A stretch of DNA of 19,236 bases from a bacterium (GTDB lineage: Bacteria > SM23-81 > DAOVCL01): positions 1 through 19,236 of the forward strand of contig JAOZPP010000065.1 in assembly GCA_029932675.1 (NCBI GenBank), in the 5' to 3' direction. The notes under the pieces were generated by a model, which was not told the DNA's origin, searched no databases, and worked only from the letters and a program-made list of their open reading frames with translations. This document shows positions 958-19,236 of the stretch, piece after piece; within the stretch, counting starts at the first letter, position 1, and every line of letters starts with the position of its first letter. The position numbers and the translations under genes are program-made.

Positions 958-1407
958 ATGCAGGCTGAATTTGAAGAGCTGCTTTCAAATCACAAAGAGG
1001 AACGCAGCGAGCTGATTCCTCTCCTCCAGGAGATTCAGGAAAAGCTGGGCTACATATCTGAGGAGGCGGTTGAGCTAATCGCCAAGCATCTCCAATTATC
1101 AGCGAGTGAGGTTTATGGCGTAGCCACCTTCTTCTCGCAGTTTCGTTTCACTAAGCCAGGAAGGCACATGATCAAGGTCTGCTTGGGGACTGCTTGTCAT
1201 GTGCGCGGTGGGGCAAGGATCCTCGATTTCCTTCAGGACGAACTGCGGATAAAGCCAGGGGGGACCACAAAGGATGGTCGGTTCAGCCTGGAGAGGATAG
1301 CCTGTTTTGGCTGTTGTGCTTTAGCCCCAGTTGTGGTGGTCGATGACAAGGTCTATGGGAAGATGACCCCCTCCAAAACGAAGGAGATCCTTGAGGGCTA
1401 TGACTGA
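958..1407 (+). CDS. nuoE: NuoE/HydC-like [2Fe-2S] NADH dehydrogenase subunit
   Basis: This is the thioredoxin-fold subunit of about 24 kDa found in complex I and in bifurcating hydrogenase or formate dehydrogenase complexes. It carries one [2Fe-2S] cluster and works with the NuoF-type flavoprotein, on the NADH side of the enzyme in the cytoplasm. The four ligands are visible as C75-x4-C80 and C116-x3-C120. The N-terminal helical part contains the family-typical EVYGVATFFSQF (51-62). At 149 aa the length is normal for the short bacterial form. ATG 958 is preceded by AGGAGAGG (947-954), a strong ribosome binding site. The stop overlaps the start of the next gene by 8 bp (ATGACTGA), implying translational coupling. 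It is the first gene of a five-gene redox operon. The family is certain; which complex it belongs to is inferred from its neighbours. Confidence 0.95.
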   Translation: MQAEFEELLSNHKEERSELIPLLQEIQEKLGYISEEAVELIAKHLQLSASEVYGVATFFSQFRFTKPGRHMIKVCLGTACHVRGGARILDFLQDELRIKPGGTTKDGRFSLERIACFGCCALAPVVVVDDKVYGKMTPSKTKEILEGYD

Positions 1408-3262: not shown

Positions 3263-5825
3263 GGGGGTGAAGATCTCCTTAACCATAGATGGGCAAGAGG
3301 TGAGGACTGTGGAGGGGAGCACCGTTTTGGAGGCTGCTCAAGGGGTGGGGATCTACATACCTACCCTTTGCCACTATCCAGGGCTTCCCCCCTATGGGGC
3401 CTGTAGGCTCTGCATTGTGGAGATAGAGGGGATGAGGGGTTATCCTACGGCCTGCACAACGCCGGTGGCCCCGGGGATGGTGGTGCGCACCCAGACCGCG
3501 GAGCTTGCGGAGCGTCGCCGACAGATCCTCCAGCTAATTCTTTCCGAACATCCCTATACCTGTCTGGTCTGTGCCGATAGGCAGTGGTGTGGCTCTTACC
3601 AGACTACCACCCGCAAGTCCGGGGTGACTACAGGCTGTCAATTCTGCCCGAACAACAACCAATGTGACCTCCAGGACCTTGTCCACTTGCTGGGGATAGA
3701 AGAAGTAAGTTTTCCTATTGCCTATCGGAACCTCCCGGTGGAGGGGGACCCATTCTTCGAGAGGGATTACAACCTCTGTATCCTCTGCGGGCGATGTGTG
3801 CGCGCCTGCCAGGAAGTGCGAGGGATTGGGGCCTTAGCCTTCACCTTTCGGGGAAATGAGGCCTTAGTAGGAACTGCCTTTGGTCGGGAACTCCTCGAAT
3901 CCGGCTGTCAGTTCTGCGGGGCCTGCGTCGATGTCTGCCCCACTGGGTCCCTTGCCGAGAGGAGGGCAAAATGGGAAGGGAAGGCTGATCGCTCAGTTAC
4001 TACTGTATGTCCTTACTGTTCCTTGGGCTGTTCCCTTGATTTAGGGCTGAAGGCGGGGAGGATAATCCGCACAAGGCCAAGCGAGGGGGGGATTAATAGG
4101 GGACAGCTTTGTGTAAAGGGCCGTTTCGGGGTGCAGGAGATAGTCCACAGTGCCGATAGGCTACACTCCCCCTTGGTGAAGAGGGGGGGGAGGTGGGTGG
4201 AGACAGGTTGGAAGGAGGCCATAGAGGAGGTGGCAAAGAGGTTCTCCCCTTGGGTTAACACCGACAAATTCGCCCTCATCTCCTCCCCCAACTGTACCAA
4301 TGAGGACGGCTGGGTGCTGCAAAAGTTTGCCCGGACGGTTATGGGCACCAACCAGATAGGATTTTCCCCTCCCTATCTCCACCCCGATTGGGGTTGCCTC
4401 TGGGGGACTGGTCTGGAGGGGGATCTGGATGAGGTTTGCACAGCCGGTTTCTTCCTTTGCTTGGGGACTGATTTCTCCCTCTCCCATGGGGTGGTGGGGG
4501 TGGAGGTGAGGAAGGCATTAAGCCAGGGCGCCCATCTCCTTTCCATCGGCTATCGGGGGGCAAACTGGCAGTCCCCCCCAGGTGGGGAGGTCTCCCTGAT
4601 CTTAGCTATAGCCAAACTTCTCTGTGCAGAGGAGGGGATGGAGCCACCTCAAGAGGGGTTTGCCCAAATCTTAAAGGAGATCGACCTTTCCTATCTGAAG
4701 CGCTCTACTGGGATCTCCAAGGAGGAGGTTGAAGGGATTGCCCGGCTGATCAGGGACCACCAGCCCCTGGTAGCCCTTATTGGGCCGGGGGTGACCAGCT
4801 TTGACGCCATCAGGGCCGCCTATGGGCTCATTTGGCTCTTGCGAGCCAATGGTTTAAAGGCCGTTGTCCTTCCCCTCTTTGGAGCCAACAACTTTAGGGG
4901 TACCTGTGACATGGGACTGGCCCCGGGGTATTTCCCCGGCTTAGAAAGGGTAGAGGGGGAGAAAGCGAGGGTTCATTTTGAGAGGCTTTGGGGCGGCAAG
5001 CTCAATCCAGTGCGCGGCGAGGAGATCCTCCCGGGGATCGAAGGCCAAAAGGTGAAGGCCCTCTATCTGGTGGGCGACCTCCCCCCCCTAAGTTTCCTTA
5101 AGAAACTGGAGCTCTTAGTGGTGCAGGCCATCTACCCCTCCAAAGTAGCTGAGTATGCCCAGATAATTCTTCCAGCAGCCAGCTTTGCCGAAGTTGACGG
5201 GACATTCACCAATTTTGAGGGTCGGGTGCAGAGGGTAAGGAGGGGGATCAAGCCTCCGGGGAGGGCCAAGCCCGATTGGTGGATCTGCTCTCAGATCGCT
5301 CAGAGGATGGGAGCCTCCGGGTTTAACTACTCACGGGCTTCCCAGATAACCGCGGAGATAGCCGGGGCAGTTCCTGGATACCAGGGGGTATCCCCGCGGA
5401 GGCTGCGGGGAAAAGGGGTCCTCACCACCTTAGCCAAACCAATCCCCAAGCCCCCAAAGCTACCTAACAAGAGGACCTCTCAGCCCTTCAATCCCCATTA
5501 TCCCTTTACCTTGGTTGCCGTAGACTGGTTATTCGGCTATCGAGGGGCCTCCCTCTCGGAGAGGGTAAAGGGAATGGAGTTGATCTACCCAGCCAGACCG
5601 TTGCAGATGAACGAGGAGGATATGGCTAAACTTGGTTTGGGGGAGGGGAGTAAGGTGAAGCTCTCCTGCAGGCAAGGGGAACTCCACCTTCCGGTAAGCA
5701 AGGCCCGGGGACTACCCTCCGGGGTCGTATCGATTGAATCAAACCTAATTCCTGGCCCCTGGAGGCTGGTTAAGGAGCTTTTTACATCCGGGGGCCTTGC
5801 GGTGAGGATAGAGCCAGATGAATAA
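3243..5825 (+). CDS. NuoG/formate-dehydrogenase-alpha-like molybdopterin protein lacking the catalytic Cys/Sec
   Basis: A large iron-sulfur and molybdopterin subunit (860 aa from ATG 3243). Domains: N-terminal [2Fe-2S] ferredoxin (C43, C54, C57, C71); a His-Cys3 cluster site (H103, C107, C110, C116), followed by a second C132-x2-C135-x5-C141 set; a two-[4Fe-4S] ferredoxin (C179, C182, C185, C189 and C222, C225, C228, C232); the molybdopterin Fe4S4 motif (C256, C259, C263, C290); the molybdopterin oxidoreductase core; and a C-terminal dinucleotide-binding domain. Formate dehydrogenases have Cys or Sec followed by His after the GTNxx segment. Here GTN (368-370) leads to YLH (378-380): leucine at the catalytic position, histidine kept. 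It therefore probably relays electrons as NuoG does rather than oxidising formate. ATG 3243 lies 12 bp after GAGGAGG and overlaps nuoF; GTG 3267, just after the nuoF stop, is a fair alternative. Confidence 0.88.
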   Translation: MQSSSNRGVKISLTIDGQEVRTVEGSTVLEAAQGVGIYIPTLCHYPGLPPYGACRLCIVEIEGMRGYPTACTTPVAPGMVVRTQTAELAERRRQILQLILSEHPYTCLVCADRQWCGSYQTTTRKSGVTTGCQFCPNNNQCDLQDLVHLLGIEEVSFPIAYRNLPVEGDPFFERDYNLCILCGRCVRACQEVRGIGALAFTFRGNEALVGTAFGRELLESGCQFCGACVDVCPTGSLAERRAKWEGKADRSVTTVCPYCSLGCSLDLGLKAGRIIRTRPSEGGINRGQLCVKGRFGVQEIVHSADRLHSPLVKRGGRWVETGWKEAIEEVAKRFSPWVNTDKFALISSPNCTNEDGWVLQKFARTVMGTNQIGFSPPYLHPDWGCLWGTGLEGDLDEVCTAGFFLCLGTDFSLSHGVVGVEVRKALSQGAHLLSIGYRGANWQSPPGGEVSLILAIAKLLCAEEGMEPPQEGFAQILKEIDLSYLKRSTGISKEEVEGIARLIRDHQPLVALIGPGVTSFDAIRAAYGLIWLLRANGLKAVVLPLFGANNFRGTCDMGLAPGYFPGLERVEGEKARVHFERLWGGKLNPVRGEEILPGIEGQKVKALYLVGDLPPLSFLKKLELLVVQAIYPSKVAEYAQIILPAASFAEVDGTFTNFEGRVQRVRRGIKPPGRAKPDWWICSQIAQRMGASGFNYSRASQITAEIAGAVPGYQGVSPRRLRGKGVLTTLAKPIPKPPKLPNKRTSQPFNPHYPFTLVAVDWLFGYRGASLSERVKGMELIYPARPLQMNEEDMAKLGLGEGSKVKLSCRQGELHLPVSKARGLPSGVVSIESNLIPGPWRLVKELFTSGGLAVRIEPDE

Positions 5826-6630
5826 GGTAGTGCAAAGGGAGATGATCGTCCCCAACATCCACCTTTTGTGCCTCTCCGCGCCCCTCATTGCCTCCAAGCT
5901 TAGGCCTGGGCAGTTTGTGATCATCCGTCCTGATCAGACCGGCGAGAGGATCCCTCTTACTGTGGCCGATTGGGACCCTCATGGGGGGACAGTTACCTGT
6001 TTCTTCGTTCAAGTAGGGACCTCCACGGCAAAGCTGGCGCGGCTGAGACCAGGCGATGAGGTGCCCACATTTGTTGGTCCCTTGGGTAAACCCTTGGAGA
6101 TAAACCAGTTGGAAAGGGTGGTCCTGGTGGGGGGATGTTATGGCATTGGTAGCATCTATCCGGTGGCCAGGGCATTCAAGGAGGCAGGTAGCGGAGTTGT
6201 AGTGATGATCGAAGCACATAGTGGATTTCTTCTCTATTGGCAGGATAGGCTTAAGGGGGTGAGTGATGAGCTGATCATCTCCACTGGGGACGGTTCGGTG
6301 GGCCAGAAGGGGCGGTCACCATCCCACTTAGCGCAGTTGCTTGCCCAGGGAAGAAGGGTTGATTTGGTCGTCGCTATGGGCTGCACCTTTATGATGAATG
6401 CGGTCTCCGAGGCCACGAGACCATTTGGGGTGCGCACGATTGTTGGCCTGAACACAGTGATGGTCGATGGTACAGGGATGTGTGGTGCCTGTAGGGTGGA
6501 GGTGGGGGGAAAGACCCTCTTTGCCTGTGTAGATGGGCCAAACTTCGATGGCCATCAGGTGAATTGGGAACTGCTCCGCGCCCGCCGGCAGGCATACTAC
6601 CAACAAGAGACCATATCAGCGGAGAGATAA
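5818..6630 (+). CDS. nfnA: NfnA: ferredoxin-NADP+ oxidoreductase subunit alpha (SudB-like)
   Basis: Small subunit of the NADH-dependent ferredoxin:NADP+ oxidoreductase NfnAB, also known as the sulfide dehydrogenase beta subunit. In characterised NfnAB it binds FAD and one [2Fe-2S] cluster and handles NAD(H). Visible here are the FAD-binding RIPLT (44-48) in the N-terminal barrel, a nucleotide-binding domain beginning VVLVGGCYGIGSIYP (101-115), and a C-terminal iron-sulfur loop with C222, C225 and C237 inside DGTGMCGACRVEVGG (217-231). In NfnA proteins the fourth ligand is an Asp, and D217 is the candidate. At 270 aa the length is normal. The ATG overlaps the upstream stop by 8 bp (ATGAATAA), and nfnB follows after 6 bp. 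A dihydroorotate dehydrogenase electron-transfer subunit shares the fold, but the nfnB neighbour decides for NfnA. Confidence 0.92.
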   Translation: MNKVVQREMIVPNIHLLCLSAPLIASKLRPGQFVIIRPDQTGERIPLTVADWDPHGGTVTCFFVQVGTSTAKLARLRPGDEVPTFVGPLGKPLEINQLERVVLVGGCYGIGSIYPVARAFKEAGSGVVVMIEAHSGFLLYWQDRLKGVSDELIISTGDGSVGQKGRSPSHLAQLLAQGRRVDLVVAMGCTFMMNAVSEATRPFGVRTIVGLNTVMVDGTGMCGACRVEVGGKTLFACVDGPNFDGHQVNWELLRARRQAYYQQETISAER

Positions 6631-6636
6631 ACGGAA

Positions 6637-8034
6637 ATGGCTAAGCCATCCCCTTACAAAACCAAGATGAGGGAGCAACCTCCCCGGGAGCGGATTAGGA
6701 ACTTCCAAGAAGTCCCCTATGGTTACTCCCCAGATGAAGCAATGGTTGAAGCCCAGCGCTGTCTGCAGTGCAAGAAACCCAGTTGTATTCAGGGCTGCCC
6801 GGTGGAGATCGACATCCCCGGGTTCATTGGGCTCATTGCCCAGGGGGATTTCGCCGGCGCCATCCGCCGCTTGAAGGAGAAGAATGTCCTCCCCGCGGTC
6901 TGTGGCCGGGTCTGTCCCCAGGAGGAGCAGTGTGAGAAATTCTGTGTGCTGGGGAAGAAGATGGAGCCTGTGGCCATTGGCAGGTTAGAGAGGTTTGCTG
7001 CCGATTGGGAGGCTGCCCAAGGGGAACCAGAACTTCCGCAAAGGAAACCCACAACGGGAAAGAGGATTGCCGTTGTGGGAGCCGGTCCGGCTGGACTCAC
7101 CGTGGCCGGAGACCTAATTCAGTTAGGACACGAGGTGACTATCTTCGAGGCGCTCCATGAGGCCGGCGGTGTCTTGGTCTATGGAATACCAGAATTTAGG
7201 CTACCCAAGTTTATTGTAGCCAGGGAGGTGGAGAACCTCTGTAGGATGGGAGTTAAGTTGGTGAAGAACTTCGTCGTGGGCACGGCAAAGACTGTAGACG
7301 AGCTACTAAAGGAGTTCGATGCCGTCTTCTTAGGCACCGGAGCGGGACTTCCCTGGTTTATGCAGATTCCGGGGGAGAATCTGAACGGGATCTACTCGGC
7401 CAACGAATACCTCACCAGGGTAAACCTGATGAAGGCATACCTCTTCCCCCAATACGATACCCCCATTCAGCGGGGTCAGAGGGTAGCGACCATTGGAGGG
7501 GGTAATGTGGCTATGGATTCGGCCCGCACCGCCTTGAGACTTGGGGCAGAGCACTCGATCGTCATCTACCGCCGCTCGCGGGTGGAGATGCCGGCAAGGG
7601 ATGAGGAGATCCATCATGCTGAGGAAGAGGGGGTGGAATTTCAGTTTCTTACCAACCCAGTAGGCTACTATGGGGATGGGGGTGGTTGGGTCAAGGAGGT
7701 GGAGTGCATCCGGATGAGACTCGGTGAACCCGATAGCTCAGGTCGGCGGCGACCAGTTCCCATCGAGGGATCTAACTTTCGCATCCCCGTGGATACAGTT
7801 GTCGTCTCCATTGGAAACAGCCCCAATCCCTTGATCCCCTCCACAACCCCCGGACTGGAGACCGGCAAACATGGGAACATCATTACCGATGAACTAACCG
7901 GGAAGACTTCCAAAAGGGGCGTCTTTGCTGGAGGAGATGTGGCCACCGGGGCGGCCACGGTGATCTTGGCTATGGGAGCTGGCCGCAGGGCAGCCAGGGC
8001 AATCGATGAGTACGTGCGCACTAGTAGATGGTAA
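6637..8034 (+). CDS. nfnB: NfnB: NADPH-dependent subunit of ferredoxin:NADP+ oxidoreductase (GltD-like)
   Basis: Large NfnB subunit (465 aa, about the length of characterised NfnB), related to the glutamate synthase small subunit. In known NfnAB it carries the bifurcating FAD and two [4Fe-4S] clusters and binds NADP(H), coupling NADP+ reduction by NADH to reduction by ferredoxin. The N-terminal domain shows C42-x2-C45-x4-C50-x3-C54 and C89-x3-C93-x5-C99-x3-C103. Two Rossmann motifs follow: VVGAGPAGLTVAGDL (146-160) for FAD and IGGGNVAMDSARTALR (286-301) for NADP(H), with YRRSR (311-315) just after. FAGGDVATGAATVILAMG near the C-terminus closes the FAD site. GGAGAG at 6621-6626 is the ribosome binding site. 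It is the last gene of the operon, 17 bp before a terminator. No gltB-type large subunit is nearby, which argues against glutamate synthase. Confidence 0.93.
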   Translation: MAKPSPYKTKMREQPPRERIRNFQEVPYGYSPDEAMVEAQRCLQCKKPSCIQGCPVEIDIPGFIGLIAQGDFAGAIRRLKEKNVLPAVCGRVCPQEEQCEKFCVLGKKMEPVAIGRLERFAADWEAAQGEPELPQRKPTTGKRIAVVGAGPAGLTVAGDLIQLGHEVTIFEALHEAGGVLVYGIPEFRLPKFIVAREVENLCRMGVKLVKNFVVGTAKTVDELLKEFDAVFLGTGAGLPWFMQIPGENLNGIYSANEYLTRVNLMKAYLFPQYDTPIQRGQRVATIGGGNVAMDSARTALRLGAEHSIVIYRRSRVEMPARDEEIHHAEEEGVEFQFLTNPVGYYGDGGGWVKEVECIRMRLGEPDSSGRRRPVPIEGSNFRIPVDTVVVSIGNSPNPLIPSTTPGLETGKHGNIITDELTGKTSKRGVFAGGDVATGAATVILAMGAGRRAARAIDEYVRTSRW

Positions 8035-8444: not shown

Positions 8445-11114
8445 TCAATATTCCACCAACACCCTCCCTTTATCTCTGCTCAATAACTGGGGGGTCTGCT
8501 CCCTGTCCATCCGACCGGCCAACCGGGGGACATTGGCCTTCAGATAGTTGAACAGCTCCCCAACGATGATCTTCCTATCCCCATTGGCATCAGCCATCCC
8601 CTTTAACCCCTTGAGGAAGAAGTAGCTAAAGAGCCCATGCCTCTGCTCTGGGTAGCCGGAGCTTATCTGCCTCCCCGATGCGGCGGCAAGGACGGTAATG
8701 TCCCCATAGGCCAAGGGGCTCTCAATGCTAATCCCCACCGGACGGGCATCCGCCAACATCATCTCCTCCTCCCTGCTCTGCCCGGAGAAACAGGCATCCA
8801 AGATCACGGTCACCGACTTGGCCTTCAGTAGGTGGAGGTTCTTGTATAGCTTATCCAGGGGGAACCCGGTGCTGGCATAGTTGGGATCGATGTCATAAGG
8901 AATCAGATAGGGTGACTTGGTCTTGATGTCCGGGGCCCCATGGCCAGAGTAGTAGATGAAGACATCGGAGTTTGCTGTTACCCTCCTGGCCAACCAGCCA
9001 TCTGGCTCAAAGAGCTTCTTAAACTCCCCGGCTGTGGCCCCATCGTTCACCCGATAGTAGACATTTCTCTCCGGTATCCCCAGGACCCTGGTGGCATAGC
9101 CATAGAAGGCCTCGGCATCCCTGCTGGCAAAGGTGGCCTTGGGGGCATACTTATAGTCCTCTATGCCAATGATCACCGCAAAGCCATCAGGTCGCTTGGT
9201 CTTAGAGATAGTGGGAATATTGTCCACATCAGATTTGGCCACCTCGGCAATGGGCTTGATGGTAGGCTTAGGGGCTTCTATCTTGGCAATCCTCACATCC
9301 ACTATGTTCTGGGTGCGCACATTCATCTTCAGCCCCAGGTCAATAAGTTTGCCAAAATCTCCCCTGGCCTCAGTGAGTTGCACCTTCAAGGGAATGTGCT
9401 CTGCAGAATAGCGGCGGCTGGTGAAGAAGTAGAAACTCACAGGTTTGTAATCACCAGGTGGGATGTCACTCAGGGGGAATATCTTGCCCGCATCAGGACA
9501 GGAGATGTTCGGATCTGTGCTTTCCAGGATGACCTTTGCCTTCACATCCTCGGCCTTTCCTGTGCCAAAGTTCTGCACAAAGGCGGTAACCACTATGGAC
9601 TCGTTTGGTTCAATGATAGAGTTGCCATTGCCATAGGCATCGCTTCCTTCTTCAGTTTTGTCGTTGATGGCAATCTGTTCAATGTGTAAGTTAGGTGGAT
9701 CATACGCCTTCGTGTCAAAACTGATAGTAAAAGGATCGGCATCAAAGCCAAACTCCTCTGTAATTTGCACACGGAATCTACGAGGCAATGTTGCGACCCG
9801 CGCCTTCCCAGTTAATGTGAAACTAACCTCCCTTCGATTTTTAGGGTTTATTAGCTCAATTGTCTGGGCAGATGTGTATTCGATACCTTCGGCGGAAGTA
9901 AGTGGCGATAAGGTTAGATGAATATTTTGGGCTACGCCCCGCCCCTGGTTGTAAAGGATGAATTGGATTTTGCCTGTCTCGTAAGCATCTAACGCTTTAT
10001 TACCAGAAGGCTCGACAAATCTTATGTTTTCAACGGTTAAATCTGCAGGATAAGCGGGTTTGACAAATAAAGCTTGTGTGGGAACAGAAATAGTTGTCGT
10101 TGCAGAATGTCCCTCAGCAGCAGAAACATTAACGCGGATTATAGCTGTGCCTGATGTGAGTGTTTTTTTACCTGTAATGGATAGTGTCACGGCTTCGGAG
10201 CTTCTTGCCCGAATTATACCGATAGCTTTGGAACCATTTACTATGATGTCTGGATTATTGCTACTCATTGAAACACGAACATTTTCGGCAACACCTTTGC
10301 CTGAGTTATTGACATCAACGGTAATAGTTCCGCTTTCGGTTGCCTTTAAAATACCATTTGAAAATCTCGCGCTCACAGATAATTCCGGGGGATATGGAGG
10401 CTTGACAGGTGCAGTTGATGGTACTAATCTAGCACCTCCATGAAGGATGCCGTGGTTTCCTCTGCCTGACAAATCTTTAACACGACCATCGTGAGTTAGT
10501 TCATTGAAGGTGTAGTAGGCAACCAATCCTGGTTTAGCTCCGAATAATTCTTTGTGCATAGTTGCTTGAATTTCCGACTGCGAGCGAGCATAATTCCAGA
10601 TTCGAACTTCATCAATGTACCCCTTAAACCGCTCGCCGTTTTGCCAGTAACCAGCTCCTATGGCTTGTGTTTGAAGGGTTTTAACCTTACCAGAAATGTT
10701 TCGAGAAAAGTCTAGGAGTCCGTTGATATATCCTCTAACGGTTATGCCGTCGAATGTCAAAGCAAAATGATACCAGGTGTTGGGAGACAAAGAAATGCTG
10801 CCGTTTCCTTGATTAAAGCTAGCTTTTTGGGTAGTAAAGTGGTATCTCATTTTGTTACCTCTTTGCCTCACTGCCGCACCTACTTCAACAAAGCCGCGTC
10901 CGTTTCCATATATCCATCTCCATGTTGCGGTGTCAGAATATTTAAACCAGGCTTCAATAGTTATCTGACGTTGCCCATTGATGACATTCGGGATAGTAAT
11001 CATATCATTTTTCCCATCAAACTGGACCGCAGACCCTGCTTTCTCAGCTTGGACTTCAAGATTGAAGATGAATAACAAAATAAATAAAACTAAAGTTTTG
11101 ACTCCATATCTCAT
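8445..11114 (-). CDS. Exported LamG and CARDB-like protein with a C-terminal caspase (C14) domain
   Basis: An 889-aa exported cysteine-protease-like protein. Residues 1-23 are a signal peptide (hydrophobic LVLFILLFIF, likely cleavage after VQA). Residues about 26-232 form a LamG/concanavalin-like lectin domain, typical of binding sugars or surface ligands. Three Ig-like CARDB-type domains follow (about 245-350, 355-470, 473-605). The caspase domain spans about 641-889 with the dyad His725 in YYSGHGAP and Cys774 in DACFSG. The acidic D772 before the Cys resembles metacaspases, which cut after Arg or Lys. An EF-hand-like loop (842-853) follows. AGGAGG precedes ATG 11114 at good spacing. Residues about 471-889 closely match the middle of the upstream gene, including 444 identical bp, while the LamG half is more A/T-rich and unrelated. 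The fold is well supported; substrate and activation are unknown. Confidence 0.88.
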   Translation of the reverse strand: MRYGVKTLVLFILLFIFNLEVQAEKAGSAVQFDGKNDMITIPNVINGQRQITIEAWFKYSDTATWRWIYGNGRGFVEVGAAVRQRGNKMRYHFTTQKASFNQGNGSISLSPNTWYHFALTFDGITVRGYINGLLDFSRNISGKVKTLQTQAIGAGYWQNGERFKGYIDEVRIWNYARSQSEIQATMHKELFGAKPGLVAYYTFNELTHDGRVKDLSGRGNHGILHGGARLVPSTAPVKPPYPPELSVSARFSNGILKATESGTITVDVNNSGKGVAENVRVSMSSNNPDIIVNGSKAIGIIRARSSEAVTLSITGKKTLTSGTAIIRVNVSAAEGHSATTTISVPTQALFVKPAYPADLTVENIRFVEPSGNKALDAYETGKIQFILYNQGRGVAQNIHLTLSPLTSAEGIEYTSAQTIELINPKNRREVSFTLTGKARVATLPRRFRVQITEEFGFDADPFTISFDTKAYDPPNLHIEQIAINDKTEEGSDAYGNGNSIIEPNESIVVTAFVQNFGTGKAEDVKAKVILESTDPNISCPDAGKIFPLSDIPPGDYKPVSFYFFTSRRYSAEHIPLKVQLTEARGDFGKLIDLGLKMNVRTQNIVDVRIAKIEAPKPTIKPIAEVAKSDVDNIPTISKTKRPDGFAVIIGIEDYKYAPKATFASRDAEAFYGYATRVLGIPERNVYYRVNDGATAGEFKKLFEPDGWLARRVTANSDVFIYYSGHGAPDIKTKSPYLIPYDIDPNYASTGFPLDKLYKNLHLLKAKSVTVILDACFSGQSREEEMMLADARPVGISIESPLAYGDITVLAAASGRQISSGYPEQRHGLFSYFFLKGLKGMADANGDRKIIVGELFNYLKANVPRLAGRMDREQTPQLLSRDKGRVLVEY
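8556..8591 (-). other. EF-hand-like calcium-binding loop in the LamG-caspase protein
   Basis: Residues 842-853 read D-A-N-G-D-R-K-I-I-V-G-E: acidic or amide side chains at loop positions 1, 3 and 5, Ile at 8 and Glu at 12, as in EF-hand and dockerin loops. Glycine is at position 4 rather than the usual 6. Equivalent loops close both caspase domains of the upstream protein (residues 713-724 and 1249-1260). Confidence 0.5.
8729..9172. repeat. 444-bp block identical to 13215-13658
   Basis: I compared this segment line by line with 13215-13658 (constant offset 4486) and found no mismatch over 444 bp. Substitutions resume at 8728/13214 and 9173/13659. It encodes the catalytic core of the caspase domain in both genes, including the His and Cys motifs. 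Perfect identity including third codon positions points to recent duplication or gene conversion. Confidence 0.95.
9403..9642. repeat. Second near-identical block, paired with 13889-14128
   Basis: At the same 4486-bp offset, this roughly 240-bp segment, coding for the CARDB-like domain before the caspase domain, differs from its partner by about nine bases. The stretch between the two blocks (about 9207-9402) is clearly more diverged, so identity between the paralogues is patchy. Confidence 0.85.
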
Positions 11115-11261
11115 TTCAGGGACCTCCTACCTCAGACTTTTGTGAGTCTATTTACTAAGAACTCGATTTCATTTGTAAGTTGTTGTTTCTTGCACGCAAT
11201 AAAAGTTTCTAAAGATAGCACCTAAGCTACTACTACGCCAGTAGGCAACAAGATGTAGGGC

Positions 11262-11277
11262 CAGGGCTTTAGCCCTG
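11262..11277. repeat. Hairpin CAGGGC-TTTA-GCCCTG between the caspase genes
   Basis: A perfect 6-bp stem with a TTTA loop lies in the 199-bp gap between the two minus-strand caspase genes. It has the same loop as the hairpin at 23-42. No T-run follows on the minus strand, so it is a poor terminator. It resembles a dispersed palindromic repeat; mRNA 3'-end protection is also possible. Confidence 0.4.
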
Positions 11278-11313
11278 TCCGAAGAGAACTTAACCCCCAG
11301 AAACGCGCATCAC

Positions 11314-14300
11314 TTAATACCTCACCAGCACCCTGTTTTTGTTCCCCGTCACCACCGGGGTTTGGGGGCGTTGGAATTTGCGGTTCGACCAGTAGGGGAC
11401 ACCGTTTGTGGGATCGGTAAGATACCTTTGCATCTCTCCTACGGTTATCTGTTTGTCTCCATTGAAATCCGCAGCTCCCTGCAAGCCCTTGAGGAAAAAG
11501 TAGGTGAACATCCCATGCTTCTTCTCCGGATACCAGTTTGCTACCTGCTCCTCAGTGGAAGCTGTAAAGATGACTACATTGGACTTCGTGACTAAAAGGT
11601 TATCTACCTTGATCAAAACAGGGCTGGCATTGTTGATGAGCATTCCTCCATTCCCCATCTGCCCTGTGTAACAGGCATCTATCACCAGGGTTATGCTCTT
11701 GGCCTTGAGTTTAGCTACATCATCATAAAATTCCTTTACGCTATAGGCGTTGTCTTTGCTAGCATAATTGGGATCGCAGTCGTAGGGCACGAAGAATGCC
11801 TCCTGGGTGGCAGTGCTGGGCGCCCCGTGGCCTGAGTAGTAGATGAAGACGTCTGATTCTCCTTGGCGGATGTAGGCAGGCAGTTTCTTTCGGATGAGGG
11901 TTTTGAAGGTTCCCGCGGTAATTAGCTCATCTGGATTGCGAGGGAGGATGTTTTCCGGATCGTAGCCGAAGGCCTGAGCTAAATACTCACGCATCACAGA
12001 GGCATCCCGTTTAGCAAACTTAGCTCTGGGCACATTTGGGTTCTGATAGTCTGAGATACCAATCACTACAGCCACAGCATTGGGGTTGGATTTGCCTCCT
12101 TTGGGGATATTTTTATCCACATCTGGCACCAACTGAGGAGCCGATTTAATTGTCACTGGTTTCTCAGATTTACCCTGAACAACCAATTCTGAAGCTTTCT
12201 TTTGGACTACATTGAAGGGTAGATCAAGCCTCTTTGTGGAACCGTACCTATTGTAGGACTCGGAGAGAGTAACCGTAACCGGCAGGCTGGTAGCTATGTT
12301 GTTGGTGAAAAGGGAAAAAGAGATGTCCTTGTATTGGCCAGAAGTCATCTCACCTAAGTCAAAATCCCTTTTGGAGTCAGGCGTGAGGAAAACATTCTTT
12401 CCCACTGATACTGTAGCCTTAACCTGTTTAGCCTCCCCTGCCCCTGTGTTTTGAATGCGAGCGGTAACTTTGACGATTTCGGAACGCTCGATCTTGCGGT
12501 TGTGGTTGAAATCATCAATAGCATAATCGGCAACGATTAAATTGGGTGGGCGAAGCGCTTGGGTTCTGAATCTTATCTTGAGTGGCGGATCAAGATCGAA
12601 TCCATTGGCCTCAGAGACAAAGACAGTGTAAGCTACTTCACCATCAGACAAATCCATACTGGCTTTAAGGGGTATATCAACGGTAGTAGTTTTACCGGCG
12701 AGCAAACTCTTAATCGGGACCGGGTTAGCTATCGCTATATTAGGATAGTTTGTTGCAGGTTTAATCTTGAATGTGAGATCATAGGCATTTCCCTTACCCT
12801 CGTTGGTCAGATGTATCTTCAAACTGGCATTTTCGCCAGCATCAAGGATATCATTGCCAGATGGCTCGGAGAAGCTGATAGTTCCTCTCAACTTTACCGG
12901 ATAGGTAGGCTTCTGAACTATAGTAGTCCCCCTATATTTCACCAATACCCTCCTAGTATCTCTACCCAACAACTGTGGGGACTGTTCCCTATCCATCTGA
13001 GCGGCTAACCGGGGGACATTGGCCTTTACATAGGAGAATAGTTCCCCCACGGTGATCGCCCGATTGCCATCTGCATCGGCCATCCCCTTTAACCCCTTGA
13101 GGAAGAAGTAGCTGAAGAGCCCATGCCTCTGCTCTGGATAGCCAGAGCTTATCTGTCTGCCCGATGCGGCGGCAAAGACGGTGATGTCCCCGTAGGCCAA
13201 GGGGCTCTCAATGGTAATCCCCACCGGACGGGCATCCGCCAACATCATCTCCTCCTCCCTGCTCTGCCCGGAGAAACAGGCATCCAAGATCACGGTCACC
13301 GACTTGGCCTTCAGTAGGTGGAGGTTCTTGTATAGCTTATCCAGGGGGAACCCGGTGCTGGCATAGTTGGGATCGATGTCATAAGGAATCAGATAGGGTG
13401 ACTTGGTCTTGATGTCCGGGGCCCCATGGCCAGAGTAGTAGATGAAGACATCGGAGTTTGCTGTTACCCTCCTGGCCAACCAGCCATCTGGCTCAAAGAG
13501 CTTCTTAAACTCCCCGGCTGTGGCCCCATCGTTCACCCGATAGTAGACATTTCTCTCCGGTATCCCCAGGACCCTGGTGGCATAGCCATAGAAGGCCTCG
13601 GCATCCCTGCTGGCAAAGGTGGCCTTGGGGGCATACTTATAGTCCTCTATGCCAATGACCACCGCAAAGCCATCAGGTCGCTTGGTCTGGGAACCAGTAG
13701 GAATATCATCCACATCAGATAGGGCTATCTCTGTAGTTGCCCTGATCACTGCCTTTGGCATCTCAATCTTAGCAATATGTACCTCAGCAATATTCTGGAG
13801 TCGAACATTCATTTTCAGGTCAAGATCAATGGTTTTACCAAAATTGCTTTTGGCTTCGGTCAGTTGTACCTTCAAAGGGATATGCTTAGCAGAATAGCGG
13901 CGGCTGGTGAAGAAGTAGAAATTCACAGGTTTGTAATCACCAGGTGGGATGTCACCCAGGGGGAATATCTTGCCCGCATCAGGGCAGGAGATGTTCGGAT
14001 CTGTGCTTTCCAGGATGACCTTTGCCTTCACATCCTCGGCCTTCCCTGTGCCAAAGTTCTGCACAAAGGCGGTGACCACTATGGACTCATTGGGTTCAAT
14101 GACTGAGTTGCCATTGCCATAGGCATCGCCTTCTTCTCTATCGTTGATAGCGATCTGCTTGATCTGCAGATCAGGGGGCTCAAAAGCTTTGGCAGCAAAG
14201 CCAAACTTCTTTGATCCAATCAGGCCAGAGACATCCCAGAGCTTGATAGTTTTGTCATCACTTCCCGAGGCCAGAGTCCTTCCATCTGGGCTGAATGCAA

Positions 14301-15213
14301 CAGAGTAGACACTCCTGGAGTGCCCTTTCAGGGTATATAGACACTTTCCCAAGGAGACATCCCAGAGCTTGATGGTCTTGTCCCAACTTCCCGAAGCCAG
14401 AGTCCTGCCATCCGGGCTGAAAGCGACGGACCTGACCCATTCGGAGTGTCCTCTCAGGGTATGTAGACACTTCCCTGAGGAGACATCCCAGAGCTTAATG
14501 GTTTTGTCCTCGCTCCCTGATGCGAGGACTCTGCCATTGGGGCTGAAGGCAATGGATTTGACTCCCCCGGAGTGCCCTCCCAGGGTACACAAGAGTCTCC
14601 CCGAGGAGACATCCCAGAGCTTGATGGTCTCGTCATCACTTCCCGAAGCCAGAGTTTTCCCATCTGGGCTGAAGGTAACGGATCTGACTACCTCGGAGTG
14701 CCCTTTCTTCGTAAGCAAGCACCTGCCCGAGGAGACATTCCATAGCTTGATGGTACCGCTTCCTGAAGCCAGAGTCCTGCCATCCGGGCTGAAGACAACG
14801 GAGAAGACACAGCCATAGTGCCCTCTCTGCGTACGCCGGCACCTGCCCGAGTAGACATCCCAGAGCTTGATGGTTTTATCACAACTTCCCGAGGTCAGAG
14901 TCCTACCATTGGGGCTGAAGGCGACGGATTCGACACCCCTACGAGAGTGCCCTCTAAGCGTCCGCAAGCACTTCCCCGAGGAGACATCCCATAGCTTGAT
15001 GGTACCGCTTCCCGAAGCCAGAGTCCTGCCATCCGGGCTGAAAGCGACGGACACAACCGTTCCGGAGTGTCCTTCAAGTGTTCGGACTGGAATGGGAGTT
15101 TCCTCCTCTGCCCTAAGTCCTGAGCTTAACAGACAGAAGATGATTCCTGTAAGCAGGGCAACCAGGCCTACAAGTTTGTCAGCTTTCTTAAAAAGATTGA
15201 GGATGTTCACCAT
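11314..15213 (-). CDS. Exported WD40 protein with two caspase (C14) domains
   Basis: A 1299-aa multidomain protein. Residues 1-35 form a signal peptide (hydrophobic about 14-30, likely cleavage after GLRA) or a membrane anchor. Residues 44-330 are seven WD40 repeats, enough for one closed propeller, normally a protein-binding platform. A CARDB-like domain (about 345-480) leads to caspase domain 1 (about 511-760; His596 in YYSGHGAP, Cys646 in DACFSG). Two more Ig-like domains (about 775-885 and 888-1002) precede caspase domain 2 (about 1041-1299; His1129, Cys1181 in DACYTG). Both dyads are intact. Each caspase domain ends with an EF-hand-like loop (713-724, 1249-1260). Domain 1 is nearly identical to the downstream gene's caspase, whereas domain 2 is a divergent paralogue. 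The start overlaps GGGGGTGA closely (ATGGTG). Function is unknown; regulated proteolysis outside the cytoplasm is inferred. Confidence 0.88.
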   Translation of the reverse strand: MVNILNLFKKADKLVGLVALLTGIIFCLLSSGLRAEEETPIPVRTLEGHSGTVVSVAFSPDGRTLASGSGTIKLWDVSSGKCLRTLRGHSRRGVESVAFSPNGRTLTSGSCDKTIKLWDVYSGRCRRTQRGHYGCVFSVVFSPDGRTLASGSGTIKLWNVSSGRCLLTKKGHSEVVRSVTFSPDGKTLASGSDDETIKLWDVSSGRLLCTLGGHSGGVKSIAFSPNGRVLASGSEDKTIKLWDVSSGKCLHTLRGHSEWVRSVAFSPDGRTLASGSWDKTIKLWDVSLGKCLYTLKGHSRSVYSVAFSPDGRTLASGSDDKTIKLWDVSGLIGSKKFGFAAKAFEPPDLQIKQIAINDREEGDAYGNGNSVIEPNESIVVTAFVQNFGTGKAEDVKAKVILESTDPNISCPDAGKIFPLGDIPPGDYKPVNFYFFTSRRYSAKHIPLKVQLTEAKSNFGKTIDLDLKMNVRLQNIAEVHIAKIEMPKAVIRATTEIALSDVDDIPTGSQTKRPDGFAVVIGIEDYKYAPKATFASRDAEAFYGYATRVLGIPERNVYYRVNDGATAGEFKKLFEPDGWLARRVTANSDVFIYYSGHGAPDIKTKSPYLIPYDIDPNYASTGFPLDKLYKNLHLLKAKSVTVILDACFSGQSREEEMMLADARPVGITIESPLAYGDITVFAAASGRQISSGYPEQRHGLFSYFFLKGLKGMADADGNRAITVGELFSYVKANVPRLAAQMDREQSPQLLGRDTRRVLVKYRGTTIVQKPTYPVKLRGTISFSEPSGNDILDAGENASLKIHLTNEGKGNAYDLTFKIKPATNYPNIAIANPVPIKSLLAGKTTTVDIPLKASMDLSDGEVAYTVFVSEANGFDLDPPLKIRFRTQALRPPNLIVADYAIDDFNHNRKIERSEIVKVTARIQNTGAGEAKQVKATVSVGKNVFLTPDSKRDFDLGEMTSGQYKDISFSLFTNNIATSLPVTVTLSESYNRYGSTKRLDLPFNVVQKKASELVVQGKSEKPVTIKSAPQLVPDVDKNIPKGGKSNPNAVAVVIGISDYQNPNVPRAKFAKRDASVMREYLAQAFGYDPENILPRNPDELITAGTFKTLIRKKLPAYIRQGESDVFIYYSGHGAPSTATQEAFFVPYDCDPNYASKDNAYSVKEFYDDVAKLKAKSITLVIDACYTGQMGNGGMLINNASPVLIKVDNLLVTKSNVVIFTASTEEQVANWYPEKKHGMFTYFFLKGLQGAADFNGDKQITVGEMQRYLTDPTNGVPYWSNRKFQRPQTPVVTGNKNRVLVRY
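13215..13658. repeat. 444-bp block identical to 8729-9172
   Basis: Partner of 8729-9172 within caspase domain 1 of the WD40 protein. There is no mismatch across 444 bp, with flanking substitutions at 13214 and 13659. Same orientation, 4486 bp apart, so recombination between the copies would delete the intervening DNA and fuse the two genes in frame. Confidence 0.95.
13889..14128. repeat. Second near-identical block, paired with 9403-9642
   Basis: CARDB-like coding segment with about nine differences from 9403-9642 at the same offset. See that entry for the mosaic pattern. Confidence 0.85.
14224..15084 (-). repeat. Seven tandem WD40 repeats (period about 126 bp)
   Basis: Seven units of 40, 43, 40, 42, 42, 42 and 38 residues (protein residues 44-330). 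The core of each is a GH dipeptide, then FSPxGrxLxSGS, then TIKLWdV. DNA words such as CATCCCAGAGCTTGATGGT recur with few changes, so the array looks recently expanded or homogenised. Units 1 and 3 lack two residues between SGS and TIKLW, where the others have DK or DE. Confidence 0.92.
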
Positions 15214-15508
15214 TCACCCCCTTGCAAAGACATTGTGCCGTCAGGGCTCTGCCCTAACAGAAAAGGCTTGTATTTTTAGACAGAATCGACAGGATAATCA
15301 GGATAAATAGAAGTCCTGCAAACCTTGTTTATCCCGTTGGAAAATCAACCCCTCAGAAGCAGCTAAGTCCATGGAACAAGACTTCCACTTTGGACACGGA
15401 TAGACGGAGATTGGACCAGACGATTCTTCTCAATCCTGAGAATCTGTGTTAATCTGCGTCCCAGTTAGGCAGTGATTACTCCGCTGTCGGTCAGCCTCGG
15501 AATTTTGG
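15214..15508. other. Upstream region of the WD40-caspase gene
   Basis: This 295-bp stretch holds no clear gene. It contains a hairpin AGGGC-TCT-GCCCT (15243-15255), repeat copy 2 (15271-15308), and a small hairpin TTCTCA-ATCC-TGAGAA (15427-15442) followed by AATCTGTGTTAATCTGCG, a type of word common in intergenic repeats. A separate promoter for the caspase genes could lie here, but no convincing -35/-10 pair was found. Confidence 0.4.
15271..15308. repeat. Dispersed intergenic repeat, copy 2
   Basis: It begins TATTTTTAGACAG and ends CAGGATAA-TCA-GGATAAA, related to copy 1 at 8142-8170. A GTTTATCCCGTT about 25 bp further right is roughly complementary to its GGATAAA end, so it can form an imperfect inverted repeat. 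Confidence 0.4.
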
Positions 15509-15640
15509 TCACATCATCAACTCCCGCACCACCGAACCTCCTTCGACCGTGTCTCCTTCACTGATGCAACCGGGGAGCGAGGGAACATAGACGATGTATC
15601 CTCCTTCCTCACTGGGCTCTACCACCACCTTGAACTTCAT
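15509..15640 (-). pseudogene. HicB-like antitoxin, truncated (43 aa)
   Basis: ATG 15640 follows AGAGGAAG at good spacing, 21 bp after the FHA gene stop, and reads 43 codons to TGA at 15509. The first 33 residues match the HicB-type N-terminus: MKFKVVVEPSEEGG, then YIVYVPSLPGC and SEGDTVE. Full HicB-like proteins continue with a helix beginning roughly EEALxNIxEAI. Here the sequence turns into an unrelated ten-residue tail and stops, so the helical half and any DNA-binding domain are missing. No HicA toxin is visible next to it. It is most simply a degraded antitoxin gene or solitary HicB fragment. The short ORF itself may still be translated. Confidence 0.65.
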
Positions 15641-15661
15641 CTCTGTCTTCCTCTATACCTG

Positions 15662-17680
15662 CTACATCACCTTGTATTTTACCCCATGTTCTTCTATGAG
15701 AACACCAGGGGAGAGAATTCTGTATCCCTCTTTATTCTTAATGAGAAATACCTCGTCTCTGATAGCAAATTCATAACCGCTACCTTCCTTAAACTGAATT
15801 CCTACTGATGTGAAAGATATTCCCACCTCCTCCATAAGCACTATATAGAATCTATCTTTTGCTTCAAGGATTACTGATCGAAGAATTCCTTTGTCAGAAC
15901 CCCCTTTTGAGCTTAAAGGTTTTTGGGGGGAACTCTTTCCCAAACTGTTGGTTTCACTCCAAGTCAGAGTTTTTCCCGAAGGAACATTCTTCTTCAGTGT
16001 ATGCACAATCATAGGATATACACCTGCAAGGTCGACAATGTCACCATCCTCTATTCCAGATAACTTTATTTTCTTCCCCCTGATGGTTGTTCCATTTTTG
16101 CTTCCTAAGTCCTTTGCAATTACTTTGTCCTCCAGGAGACTAACCTGCAAATGGGTCCCACTTATTCTGGGATCATTGATGCCAATGTCATACTCCTTAC
16201 CTGACCCATCCCTGCCAAATATCAGATTATCTTTCTTAAAAAGGTATATTTCTTTCCCTACTTTCTCCGGAATTAGTCTAATGCACTTGATCGTCCTGTT
16301 TTCCCTTATTTTTTCGATTAACTTGTGTGCCCCGGTCTGATCCCTATCCATCTCTACTGATTGAATCAAGAGAGTCTCTGCTTGTCTAACTTCACCAGCA
16401 TATAGTAGCTTTTTCCCTTTCTCGAAAAAAGTACTGCTTGTTTCCAACCTTTTTTCAACTTCCTCCTGTAAGGAACCTATGCTTTCCGATGCTGGCAACT
16501 TAGGGAGTTCAATGCCGGATTTAGCGTGATCCAGTCTGGAGATAAGTGATTGGTATTTGTGCCAATCAGGGTCTTCGCTTAATTGTTTCATCTTGAGTGC
16601 CGCAGTTTTTGGTTCTCCCCTCCCTATGAGCATTTTGAACTCCTCAATTTTGGATTCGAACTTTTCAGATAGTTCAAGGAGTCTGATGTACTCGTCATAT
16701 TGTGCTACGAACTCGTTGACTTCGGGGGACTCCAGATACTTGGGTAAATCCTGAAGCTCAAGATGCTCGTCGGCTTTTAGCTTTCCTCCTCCTAAAATTC
16801 TGCTTTTGAAATTCTGATATTTTACAAATGCACGCTCTGCCTGGATTGGGTTACCTTTTGTTACTATATTTAACCTATCGTTTATCGCATTAAATTCAGG
16901 GTCATCCTTAAGGTAGAGCAACACCTTTGCAAGCTGATTCCTTGCAGATTCAAAACTACCGCTTCTGATCAGCAATTGGAGCTGTTCGAGTATTTCAGCC
17001 TTTCCGACCATAATCTTCTTTCTCCTCCGGCTGGTGATAGCAATTCCCAATACAAGGTAAATGAAAGAAGCCCCCAAAATGCCACCCAAGATGCGATTTG
17101 CTTGGGTAAATTTCTCTTTCTTTATGTTATAGGAGATTTCTCGAGATGGATGGGTAAAGACTGCTGTTGACTCGACCATTGCCACATTTTTGATTGTTGC
17201 CGTGAGTTGGACCATCCCTTTATTGCCTTCTAAATTTTGCCAATTTAATTGTATTTCGTAGTCTGGTGTAGTTACCGCCCTTTTCACTTTTTTGAGGATT
17301 ATAGATCTGACTCTCTCTGGGTTCATTCGACCCCTGATAAGTAGTTCATTTCTCAAACTATCTACCCCTCGGGCATAATCCTTTGGATTAACTATTAATG
17401 TGAATGGGCTATCTGGTCTTAAGAGACCAATGTGTACCTCAGGTATAACTATTCTCTCGAGGTTTTCGTCTTTTTGTGGGCCGGACATCTTAACAGTCTC
17501 TGATATCGCTCCTCGAAAATTCTTGGCACGGCATTGATTAACAAGACTGTTTATCAACCTCTTAACCGATTCCTTACACGGAGTAGGCTTGTTTATGTTG
17601 ATATAATAGCGGGAGTATGCAAAAATCCCCGTGCAGAGAGCTATTAGGCTTATAGGAACTATGATTCTAATCCTACTCAT
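15662..17680 (-). CDS. Two-TM membrane protein with cytoplasmic FHA domain
   Basis: A 672-aa protein. A short basic N-terminus and a first membrane segment (about 5-22) are followed by an extracytoplasmic region (about 23-196), a second membrane segment (about 197-216), and then RRRKK (218-222), placing the remainder in the cytoplasm. Residues about 225-460 are helical and repeat-like (TPR-style, not assignable with certainty). An FHA domain spans about 466-560, with GR (489-490), RISGTH (505-510) and SKNG (527-530), the residues that normally bind phosphothreonine. A small beta-rich C-terminal domain (598-672) follows a Ser/Lys-rich linker. Its ATG overlaps the lipoprotein stop by 4 bp (ATGA), and a Ser/Thr kinase gene lies just upstream, the expected partner of an FHA domain. 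The extracytoplasmic domain is unrecognised. Confidence 0.85.
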   Translation of the reverse strand: MSRIRIIVPISLIALCTGIFAYSRYYININKPTPCKESVKRLINSLVNQCRAKNFRGAISETVKMSGPQKDENLERIVIPEVHIGLLRPDSPFTLIVNPKDYARGVDSLRNELLIRGRMNPERVRSIILKKVKRAVTTPDYEIQLNWQNLEGNKGMVQLTATIKNVAMVESTAVFTHPSREISYNIKKEKFTQANRILGGILGASFIYLVLGIAITSRRRKKIMVGKAEILEQLQLLIRSGSFESARNQLAKVLLYLKDDPEFNAINDRLNIVTKGNPIQAERAFVKYQNFKSRILGGGKLKADEHLELQDLPKYLESPEVNEFVAQYDEYIRLLELSEKFESKIEEFKMLIGRGEPKTAALKMKQLSEDPDWHKYQSLISRLDHAKSGIELPKLPASESIGSLQEEVEKRLETSSTFFEKGKKLLYAGEVRQAETLLIQSVEMDRDQTGAHKLIEKIRENRTIKCIRLIPEKVGKEIYLFKKDNLIFGRDGSGKEYDIGINDPRISGTHLQVSLLEDKVIAKDLGSKNGTTIRGKKIKLSGIEDGDIVDLAGVYPMIVHTLKKNVPSGKTLTWSETNSLGKSSPQKPLSSKGGSDKGILRSVILEAKDRFYIVLMEEVGISFTSVGIQFKEGSGYEFAIRDEVFLIKNKEGYRILSPGVLIEEHGVKYKVM

Positions 17681-19110
17681 TTCAGTTTACTCTTCAAGAG
17701 CTTTATCAAACCTGGCTTCACTTTGCTAAAGGCCTCCCAACCTGCCCCCGATACAGTGACATGTTCACCCTTTGCTGAAGGGCCCGAAAGGGCGAAGAGC
17801 TCTTTACCCTGTGGAATAGAATAGAGGACAATTCTGCTTGAAGCTTTTGACCAACACATTCCATACATATCCGGTCCACCACCGAGAGCAGTTATCTTCA
17901 TTGATAGTAAATAGTCCGCATGTAGGTCTTGAGCTCCCCTTTTGTCTTGATTGGTAACCCTTTCACCTTGAATTGCATAATCAATTGTCCCATAACCTTT
18001 GTCAAGTAATGTTTGTTTTACCTCGTCCACAAATCCTACAGGTAAGATCCTGTGATGGTTATTGAAGAAGACTACTGAAATCGCTATAGTTTGTATCTTG
18101 TGAAGGTAAATATGGCAAATAGGCGTTATAAATTTTTGTTCGGGTTGTATCCCAATTTCCTTTTCACCAAGTTTTACTTCCAGGAGTGCATGGTTTTTTG
18201 ATGCGTCTATGTGTTCGATCACTATCTCTGCTAAACCATCAGTAGATGTTTTTATTCCGTATGTAACTATCTTCTCCTCCCCGGTAGGATATACTATCTT
18301 GGCAACAAGGGGAATGTTTGCAACCCTCGCTTCCGCCCCTCCTTCTTCTCGGTAAGCCACATATACTCGGGGGTTTACACTTGGCTTGCCTTCTGCATCG
18401 TAATTGACTTTTTTGTCAAGTGGTTTGATTTCAAGGTTGTTAATGAGGGTTGCAATCTTACTTTGAGTAAAGGAATTGAGTTCTAACTTTTCACCATTGA
18501 TCTCCGTTTCTATGGGTGTTTCTCCGAAGAATTTTTTAATCTCCTTTCCTGCCTTTATGAGAGTATTGAGCGCGAGGGCGAAATTCCTACCGTTTATTGC
18601 CTCTAATCCAGGTTTTAAGAATCCAAGGACCTTTGCCTTTTTCCTCCGTAGGTCTTCAGTGACATATTCATCATATTTCTTCCTACTTAGCCAGCATAAT
18701 CCAGTTACATAGTCCTGGTCGGGGCAGGGATAGTAATAATTGCACTTAACCTCATGTAGAACCATATCGGTATAGGAGTCGATGCGACTGTTAAACCAAC
18801 TTGTGTTCTCATCCGCTTTTTCGCTCACCTCATATTCAATCGTCGCTTTAACTCTGAGGCGGATTCCTGCAGCTAAATCGGCTCTTGCACCTTCTTTTGC
18901 GTTCTGGATCGCTTCCTCAAGTCCAAACTTATCAGTATTTACTACACTTTCACCCACAAAAAGCCTCGGATCCCGCTTTTTTTCACCAACCCTTCTCTTG
19001 TTTTGCTCAATTTTAGCAGATTCTTCGATCTGCTTGAGAGTCGGCCTCTTAAGGGATGTGCAAGAAAAGATAAAGATGATGAGCGCACAGAATAAATATA
19101 ACCCTCTCAT
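17677..19110 (-). CDS. LPP20-like lipoprotein of unknown function
   Basis: A 477-aa predicted lipoprotein. The N-terminus MRGLYLFCALIIFIFSC has a lipobox ending IFSC, with Cys17 as the lipidation site, so it should be anchored to a membrane facing the periplasm or cell surface. Residues about 50-160 (EEAIQNAKEGARADLAAGI and following) resemble LPP20-type domains, which begin with Ala-rich helices of this kind. A middle part (about 245-330) looks like a beta-sandwich. The C-terminal part (about 350-477) has a pattern like TolB-N or LPP20 domains, including HADYLLSMKI. None of these is certain beyond the lipobox. It is translationally coupled to the FHA gene (4-bp overlap) and starts 41 bp after the kinase stop, suggesting one operon. 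A GGGGGG run upstream of ATG 19110 is the likely ribosome binding site. Confidence 0.7.
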   Translation of the reverse strand: MRGLYLFCALIIFIFSCTSLKRPTLKQIEESAKIEQNKRRVGEKKRDPRLFVGESVVNTDKFGLEEAIQNAKEGARADLAAGIRLRVKATIEYEVSEKADENTSWFNSRIDSYTDMVLHEVKCNYYYPCPDQDYVTGLCWLSRKKYDEYVTEDLRRKKAKVLGFLKPGLEAINGRNFALALNTLIKAGKEIKKFFGETPIETEINGEKLELNSFTQSKIATLINNLEIKPLDKKVNYDAEGKPSVNPRVYVAYREEGGAEARVANIPLVAKIVYPTGEEKIVTYGIKTSTDGLAEIVIEHIDASKNHALLEVKLGEKEIGIQPEQKFITPICHIYLHKIQTIAISVVFFNNHHRILPVGFVDEVKQTLLDKGYGTIDYAIQGERVTNQDKRGAQDLHADYLLSMKITALGGGPDMYGMCWSKASSRIVLYSIPQGKELFALSGPSAKGEHVTVSGAGWEAFSKVKPGLIKLLKSKLK

Positions 19111-19151
19111 AGTTCATACCCCCCCTTAGATGTAGTGGGACTTTCCTTCAC

Positions 19152-19236
19152 TCAGGCATCCCTCAACTTAATCTTTTTAATCTCCTCCATAAACTCATTG
19201 ACCGAGGGGTATCTTTTCTCCTTCTCCGCCTCCAGA
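19152..19236 (-). CDS. Ser/Thr protein kinase, C-terminal end only (partial)
   Basis: The minus strand from the window edge reads 27 codons to TGA at 19152-19154: LEAEKEKRYPSVNEFMEEIK, then KIKLRDA. This matches the last helix of bacterial Hanks-type kinases, where the catalytic domain ends with an (A)L-x-K-x-P-E-K-RYxSxxEF-x-x-x-L/I pattern. Nothing follows the kinase lobe, so there is no C-terminal sensor domain or membrane anchor. The rest of the gene lies outside the window. The FHA protein two genes downstream is the natural reader of its phosphorylation. The call rests on only 27 residues, but the motif is characteristic. Confidence 0.7.
   Translation of the reverse strand, partial: LEAEKEKRYPSVNEFMEEIKKIKLRDA

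Follow-up and report, generated by a model that had tools for sequence, protein, structure and literature searches.

Predicted exported caspases, their envelope partner proteins and an adjoining kinase/lipoprotein/FHA operon in a bacterial draft genome

Bacterial caspases are mostly discussed as cytoplasmic death or defence enzymes. Here, we analysed a 19,236-bp window, the complete contig C52 of a 3.03-Mb draft genome, in which two genes for apparently exported caspases lie downstream of a kinase/lipoprotein/FHA operon. Judged by comparison of sequences across genomes, exported LPP20 and DUF4384 proteins are the ancestral partners of these caspases. Furthermore, because related bacteria have conserved gene groups that combine kinase, FHA and exported-caspase genes, a cross-envelope link between the kinase/lipoprotein/FHA group and the caspases of the window is plausible but unproven. 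The window probably represents, though this is unproven, a variant of an envelope caspase system that takes input from kinase/FHA proteins.

Gene order and spacing in the window

An earlier note on this DNA had read the minus-strand genes (Table 1) as a kinase end, a lipoprotein, an FHA protein, a HicB fragment and two caspases. The open reading frames, their strands, the 41-bp gap between the kinase stop (19152) and the lipoprotein start (19110) and the 4-bp overlap of the lipoprotein and FHA genes all match that description, and Pfam confirmed Laminin_G_3, CARDB, WD40, FHA and three Peptidase_C14 domains. Its 295-bp gap before the caspase genes holds when measured from the end of the HicB remnant, but the distance from the FHA stop to the caspase start is 448 bp. 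On the plus strand, the genes at 958-8034 read as NuoE/NuoF/NuoG-like and NfnA/NfnB-like subunits, and their GC content is about 57% versus 42-51% in the minus-strand genes.

Table 1. Minus-strand features of the 19,236-bp window
Feature	Position	Strand	Basis
LamG-CARDB-caspase, predicted exported, 889 aa	8445..11114	-	ORF and Pfam
WD40-CARDB-caspase-CARDB-caspase, predicted exported, 1299 aa	11314..15213	-	ORF and Pfam
Segment 87% identical to contig C91 sequence	15243..15456	-	Sequence comparison
HicB antitoxin remnant, 43 aa	15509..15640	-	PF15919 positions 1-31 of 123
Two-TM FHA protein, 672 aa	15662..17680	-	FHA Pfam score and TM scan
Lipoprotein, 477 aa, lipobox IFSC	17677..19110	-	ORF; LPP20 13.4 bits (below cut-off); family profile
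Probable Ser/Thr kinase, last 27 codons, truncated by contig end	19152..19236	-	Sequence and kinase-profile score

As the window is a whole contig, the kinase is present only as a 27-aa tail, and what the contig carries of a Hanks-type kinase, defined by its HRD...N / DFG core, is these C-terminal residues only. The Ser/Thr kinase end of the earlier note is probable: it scored 9.6 bits against the kinase profile, above the best of 500 shuffles (4.5), but its 27 codons are too short for a Pfam call. The gene stops directly after the kinase domain and therefore encodes neither a C-terminal TM segment nor DUF4384. The FHA domain of the next-but-one gene product (residues 487-551) scored 41.9 bits against a Pfam cut-off of 20.7, and the GR, SxxH and NG motifs are present as FGRD, SGTH and SKNG. 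A TM scan bore out the two membrane segments claimed for this protein, at residues 4-22 and 197-215; they enclose an extracytoplasmic loop of about 170 aa, and a cytoplasmic helical region lies between the second segment and the FHA domain. Its N-terminal 458 residues are an orphan region, with no homologue in 385 other genomes.

The spacer between the FHA and caspase genes is composite. The HicB fragment gave a partial PF15919 match and is a remnant, covering just the first 31 of 123 profile positions; the window ORFs include no HicA, and hence no HicAB toxin-antitoxin pair of a complete HicB and an adjacent HicA. Directly upstream of the WD40-caspase gene lies the segment resembling a 216-bp sequence on contig C91, and small parts of this segment are dispersed repeats. 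A promoter and terminator scan of the spacer gave no signals above chance.

Two exported caspases

The three caspase domains are the sole Peptidase_C14 matches in the genome; the protein with one domain scored 47 bits and the one with two scored 98 bits, against a gathering score of 21.4. The His and Cys of the dyad are kept in each domain and are invariant in a 62-sequence alignment, in which the Asp of Asp-x-Cys is at least 90% conserved and aligns with the plant metacaspase Asp; an acidic residue at this site is a mark of Arg/Lys-specific metacaspases/orthocaspases. The caspase-domain model (pLDDT 91) matches the fold of the MALT1 paracaspase, plant metacaspases and Geobacter GSU0716 (3bij), whereas identity to these proteins is 11-18% and none of them has CARDB or LamG parts. 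The signal peptides earlier assigned to both caspases agree with N-termini that we read by eye (VQA/EK and LRA/EE). Moreover, a signal-like N-terminus was found in 76 of 83 complete caspase genes versus 55% of other genes under the same loose rule, a background that makes this heuristic weak evidence by itself. The caspases are predicted to be extracytoplasmic cysteine proteases that probably cut after Arg/Lys.

A role as cytoplasmic death or defence effectors appears very improbable. The signal peptides and extracytoplasmic domains speak against it, and the match to the EACC1-associated caspase model NF047832 that would favour it is partial, at 62 bits and, for two domains together, 128 bits against a curated cut-off of 140; neither an EACC1 nor an NTPase partner is encoded in the window. 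EACC1/TRADD-N conflict systems (PMC8195603) likewise have caspases in neighbourhoods with kinases or FHA proteins as alternative effectors; they are described as effector/immunity networks, whereas the window caspases are predicted to be exported and lack an NTPase core. A comparison with viral contigs found no relative of the window caspases.

Both proteins have homologues at one locus of a Zixibacteriota genome (L158). Along its full length, the LamG-CARDB-caspase shares 46% identity with a 912-aa LamG-caspase there, and residues 768-1299 of the WD40 protein match a separate 804-aa LamG-caspase gene (47%); the window pair would therefore be an old exported caspase pair. Residues 339-760 of the WD40 protein are an 88% copy of residues 466-889 of the LamG-caspase, its CARDB-caspase part, which makes the double caspase a chimera. 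In the parts of PMC3501461 considered here, WD40 is the commonest extra domain of prokaryotic caspase homologues (metacaspases/orthocaspases, Peptidase_C14), and already in 2012 some were noted as possibly carrying signal peptides and extracellular domains; exported bacterial caspases and operon surveys have both been published. These homologues share with the window proteins a caspase domain with a His-Cys dyad, but the LamG-CARDB and WD40-CARDB double-caspase architectures differ, and the operon types given in those parts include neither LPP20/DUF4384 partners nor kinase/FHA operons.

Conserved envelope partners of exported caspases

A GTDB genome scan with the caspase domains yielded 80 loci that span Cloacimonadota, Marinimicrobia, Ignavibacteria, Desulfobacterota, Bacteroidota and others. 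Of the 79 loci from other genomes, 34 have a DUF4384 protein in the same-strand run, 10 an LPP20-like protein, 2 (L104 and L144) a kinase and none an FHA gene. DUF4384 was present in 26 of 39 caspase loci versus 0.3 expected from whole-genome densities; moreover, 35 DUF4384 and 11 LPP20 genes lie at most two genes from a caspase, against 2 and 2 at a distance of at least five genes. Given this conservation, the ancestral partners would be envelope proteins. For cyanobacterial orthocaspases, DUF4384 is already on record as an accessory domain (PMC8283722). Next to exported caspases, only DUF4384 proteins are commoner than formylglycine-generating-enzyme-like proteins, which were seen in 14 of 79 same-strand runs (L098-L177) and are fused to caspases in several genomes.

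These counts do not bear out the conserved order of kinase, LPP20-like lipoprotein, FHA and exported caspase that the earlier note had proposed: the exact set is unique to this genome, and at the 79 loci the caspase genes are seldom in a run with a kinase and never with an FHA gene. In the congeneric genome G001 there is no caspase and nothing matches the lipoprotein or FHA protein; the CARDB region alone finds a match there, a weak one.

DUF4384 is matched only twice in the window's genome, once by a fragment and once by a whole gene, and both are on contig C91, where two LPP20 proteins and a lytic transglycosylase are encoded in the same run as the whole gene. At L158, too, an LPP20 protein, a transglycosylase homologous to that on C91 (36.5%) and the LamG-caspases share a locus, without a kinase between them. 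The C91 set is the probable partner set of the window caspases; the caspase/partner locus may have been split or duplicated in this genome. The C91 locus (L186, G000 C91:30000-39252) reads at 2663-8024 as lytic transglycosylase, DUF4384 fragment, two LPP20 and DUF4384, followed by a TPR-WD40 gene truncated by the contig end.

A substantial but less probable explanation is rearrangement, by which the caspase pair, its true partners being on C91, moved beside an unrelated kinase/lipoprotein/FHA operon. Such a move is suggested by the C91-like segment of the spacer, whose C91 copy sits downstream of the LPP20-LPP20-DUF4384 genes, together with the dispersed repeats, the HicB remnant, the kinase-free locus L158 and the unlike GC content of the two halves of the minus-strand gene set (about 42% vs 48-51%). 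Recurring kinase/FHA/caspase gene groups argue against it, as do lipoprotein-family domains that are fused to exported caspases elsewhere.

The window lipoprotein has an LPP20-like N-terminal domain and a C-terminal envelope domain. Its LPP20-like label needs qualification, for the protein itself is below the gathering score of PF02169 (13.4 against 25.9 bits) but a homologue at L068 passes it with 38.1. The family, traced by its profile in 16 of 386 genomes, includes a full-length member at L199 (G153 C7), close to which lie a DUF4384 gene and an LPP20-caspase fusion; an HtrA-like protease is near that fusion as well (L199 8743-15443). Furthermore, the profile of the family's C-terminal domain matched the N-terminal domain of L213/L281-type caspases (below) with a probability of 96.7% and a score of 65.6, compared with a best score of 17.3 in 60 column shuffles. 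Thus, both recognisable parts of the lipoprotein family occur fused to caspases elsewhere. The link runs via the family, since the window sequence alone reached just 2.9% against the caspase N-terminal domain, below significance; it joins its own family profile at 86%, and its structure model is poor (pLDDT 55). The neighbourhoods of 16 further family loci contained no FHA genes and two kinases, several genes distant.

Kinase and FHA genes beside exported caspases in other genomes

A close counterpart of the window is an operon at L213, in the Desulfobacteraceae genome of L166. On one strand and with short gaps, it encodes three membrane proteins with FHA domains, a kinase-TM-DUF4384 protein, an exported caspase and a CsgG-type lipoprotein; a GNA1162-like protein is additionally encoded there. 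A second genome of that order (L281, Desulfobacterota) has the same gene order, with a caspase 45% identical, so that a six-gene operon is conserved (L213 1-9478; L281 3461-11922). This operon and the window both have a kinase (a probable one in the window), a two-TM FHA protein, a lipoprotein and an exported caspase, and like the window protein the first FHA protein of each of the two loci contains two membrane segments, although the FHA proteins compare with that of the window by the FHA domain only. Unlike the window, L213 and L281 have three FHA proteins, a kinase with TM-DUF4384, a CsgG-type lipoprotein and Glucodextran_B-like domains in the caspase; the window kinase ends after the kinase domain, and the 448-bp spacer precedes its caspases.

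Kinase genes also lie tightly beside exported caspases at L215, where a caspase with a lipobox-like start adjoins a kinase-TM-DUF4384 gene, at L104 (exported caspase, PP2C and kinase, with gaps of 18 and 32 bp) and at L144 (WD40-CARDB-caspase, cyclase-like gene and kinase). Of 40 caspase-bearing genomes, 3 have kinase-DUF4384 fusions; in the 386-genome set, such a fusion was confirmed by profile at L248, and coordinates suggest two more at L254 and L255. Thus, the domain most often found next to exported caspases also serves some kinases as their extracytoplasmic part. An early reading, that the kinases are simply unrelated to the caspases, was dropped once these fusions turned up. In the closer caspase family, kinase/FHA adjacency was seen at 4 of 80 loci versus about 1.3 expected (scaled), a weak signal given this expectation and the relatedness of two of the four kinase-positive loci (L163 and L166). 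In the 39-locus set, 4 kinases were seen against about 0.6 expected, a significance that is overstated because the 39 genomes used for the expectations take in all four kinase-positive loci by choice.

Two further loci show FHA and kinase genes in other company. L071 (G016 C1, 6273-11483), an independent case in which FHA/kinase genes are tied to an extracytoplasmic protease, is an operon of an exported trypsin-like protease-TM-FHA protein, PP2C and a kinase. At L214 (427-5801), a kinase-TM-PEGA-like-DUF4384 protein lies beside two multi-FHA proteins, one of which is fused to an FAD-dependent oxidoreductase-like domain with a ferredoxin-like tail.

We consider it unlikely that the caspases act constitutively, unconnected with phosphorylation, in the processing or shedding of adhesin-like surface proteins. 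The binding or adhesion-type character of LamG, CARDB and WD40 and the lack of a kinase at most caspase loci agree with this explanation; however, some genomes have tight operons of kinase-TM-DUF4384, FHA and exported-caspase genes.

Discussion

The earlier note had proposed a trans-envelope pathway from phosphorylation to proteolysis, which is supported in part. What speaks for it is the recurrence of kinase or FHA genes beside exported caspases (L213, L281, L215, L104 and L144) and the caspase-fused parts of the lipoprotein family; what speaks against it is the uniqueness of the exact gene set and the orphan N-terminal region of the FHA protein. Our best explanation, which we give an even chance, is that caspases with ancestral LPP20/DUF4384 partners lie downstream of a kinase/lipoprotein/FHA operon whose products gate or localise them. 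In this model, LamG, CARDB and WD40 domains would dock the caspases in the periplasm or at the surface, where they would cleave at basic sites; LPP20/DUF4384 proteins would attend them, and in some lineages a kinase and an FHA membrane protein would set their state. In this genome, the caspase pair would stand apart from the LPP20-LPP20-DUF4384 set on C91 and downstream of the operon. The kinase would phosphorylate threonine, the FHA domain would read the phosphothreonine state, and the two-TM FHA protein would hand this state to its own extracytoplasmic loop and to the lipoprotein, which may together gate or localise the caspases; alternatively, the signal may run inwards. Within this explanation, we infer the coupling of FHA protein and kinase, the direction of the signal, the substrate and co-regulation in this genome, and the coupling of kinase/FHA to the caspases is suggested by adjacency and the lipoprotein family.

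A precedent is YARHG, one extracellular domain found on kinase-TM proteins and on a secreted caspase (PMC3355149). Here, the shared domain is DUF4384, in kinase fusions and in caspase neighbours, and unlike that of YARHG its link is backed by gene neighbourhood. The open-access literature searched here yielded no account of LPP20/DUF4384 proteins as envelope partners or of operons that join kinase, FHA and exported-caspase genes, which, given that scope, is no proof of absence.

More broadly, we tentatively suggest, at somewhat less than an even chance, that exported caspases make up a family of envelope protease systems in which Ser/Thr kinases and FHA proteins act as the switch across the membrane and DUF4384, LPP20 and CsgG-like domains provide the extracytoplasmic interface; the window would be one variant and L213/L281 another. 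If true, a widespread class of exported caspases with fixed envelope partners would make caspase-type proteolysis also a matter of regulated envelope biology, and kinase/FHA control genes would share an operon with exported caspases in some lineages. DUF4384 and LPP20 proteins would thereby gain a testable role, with L213 and L281 as the operons in which to test it.
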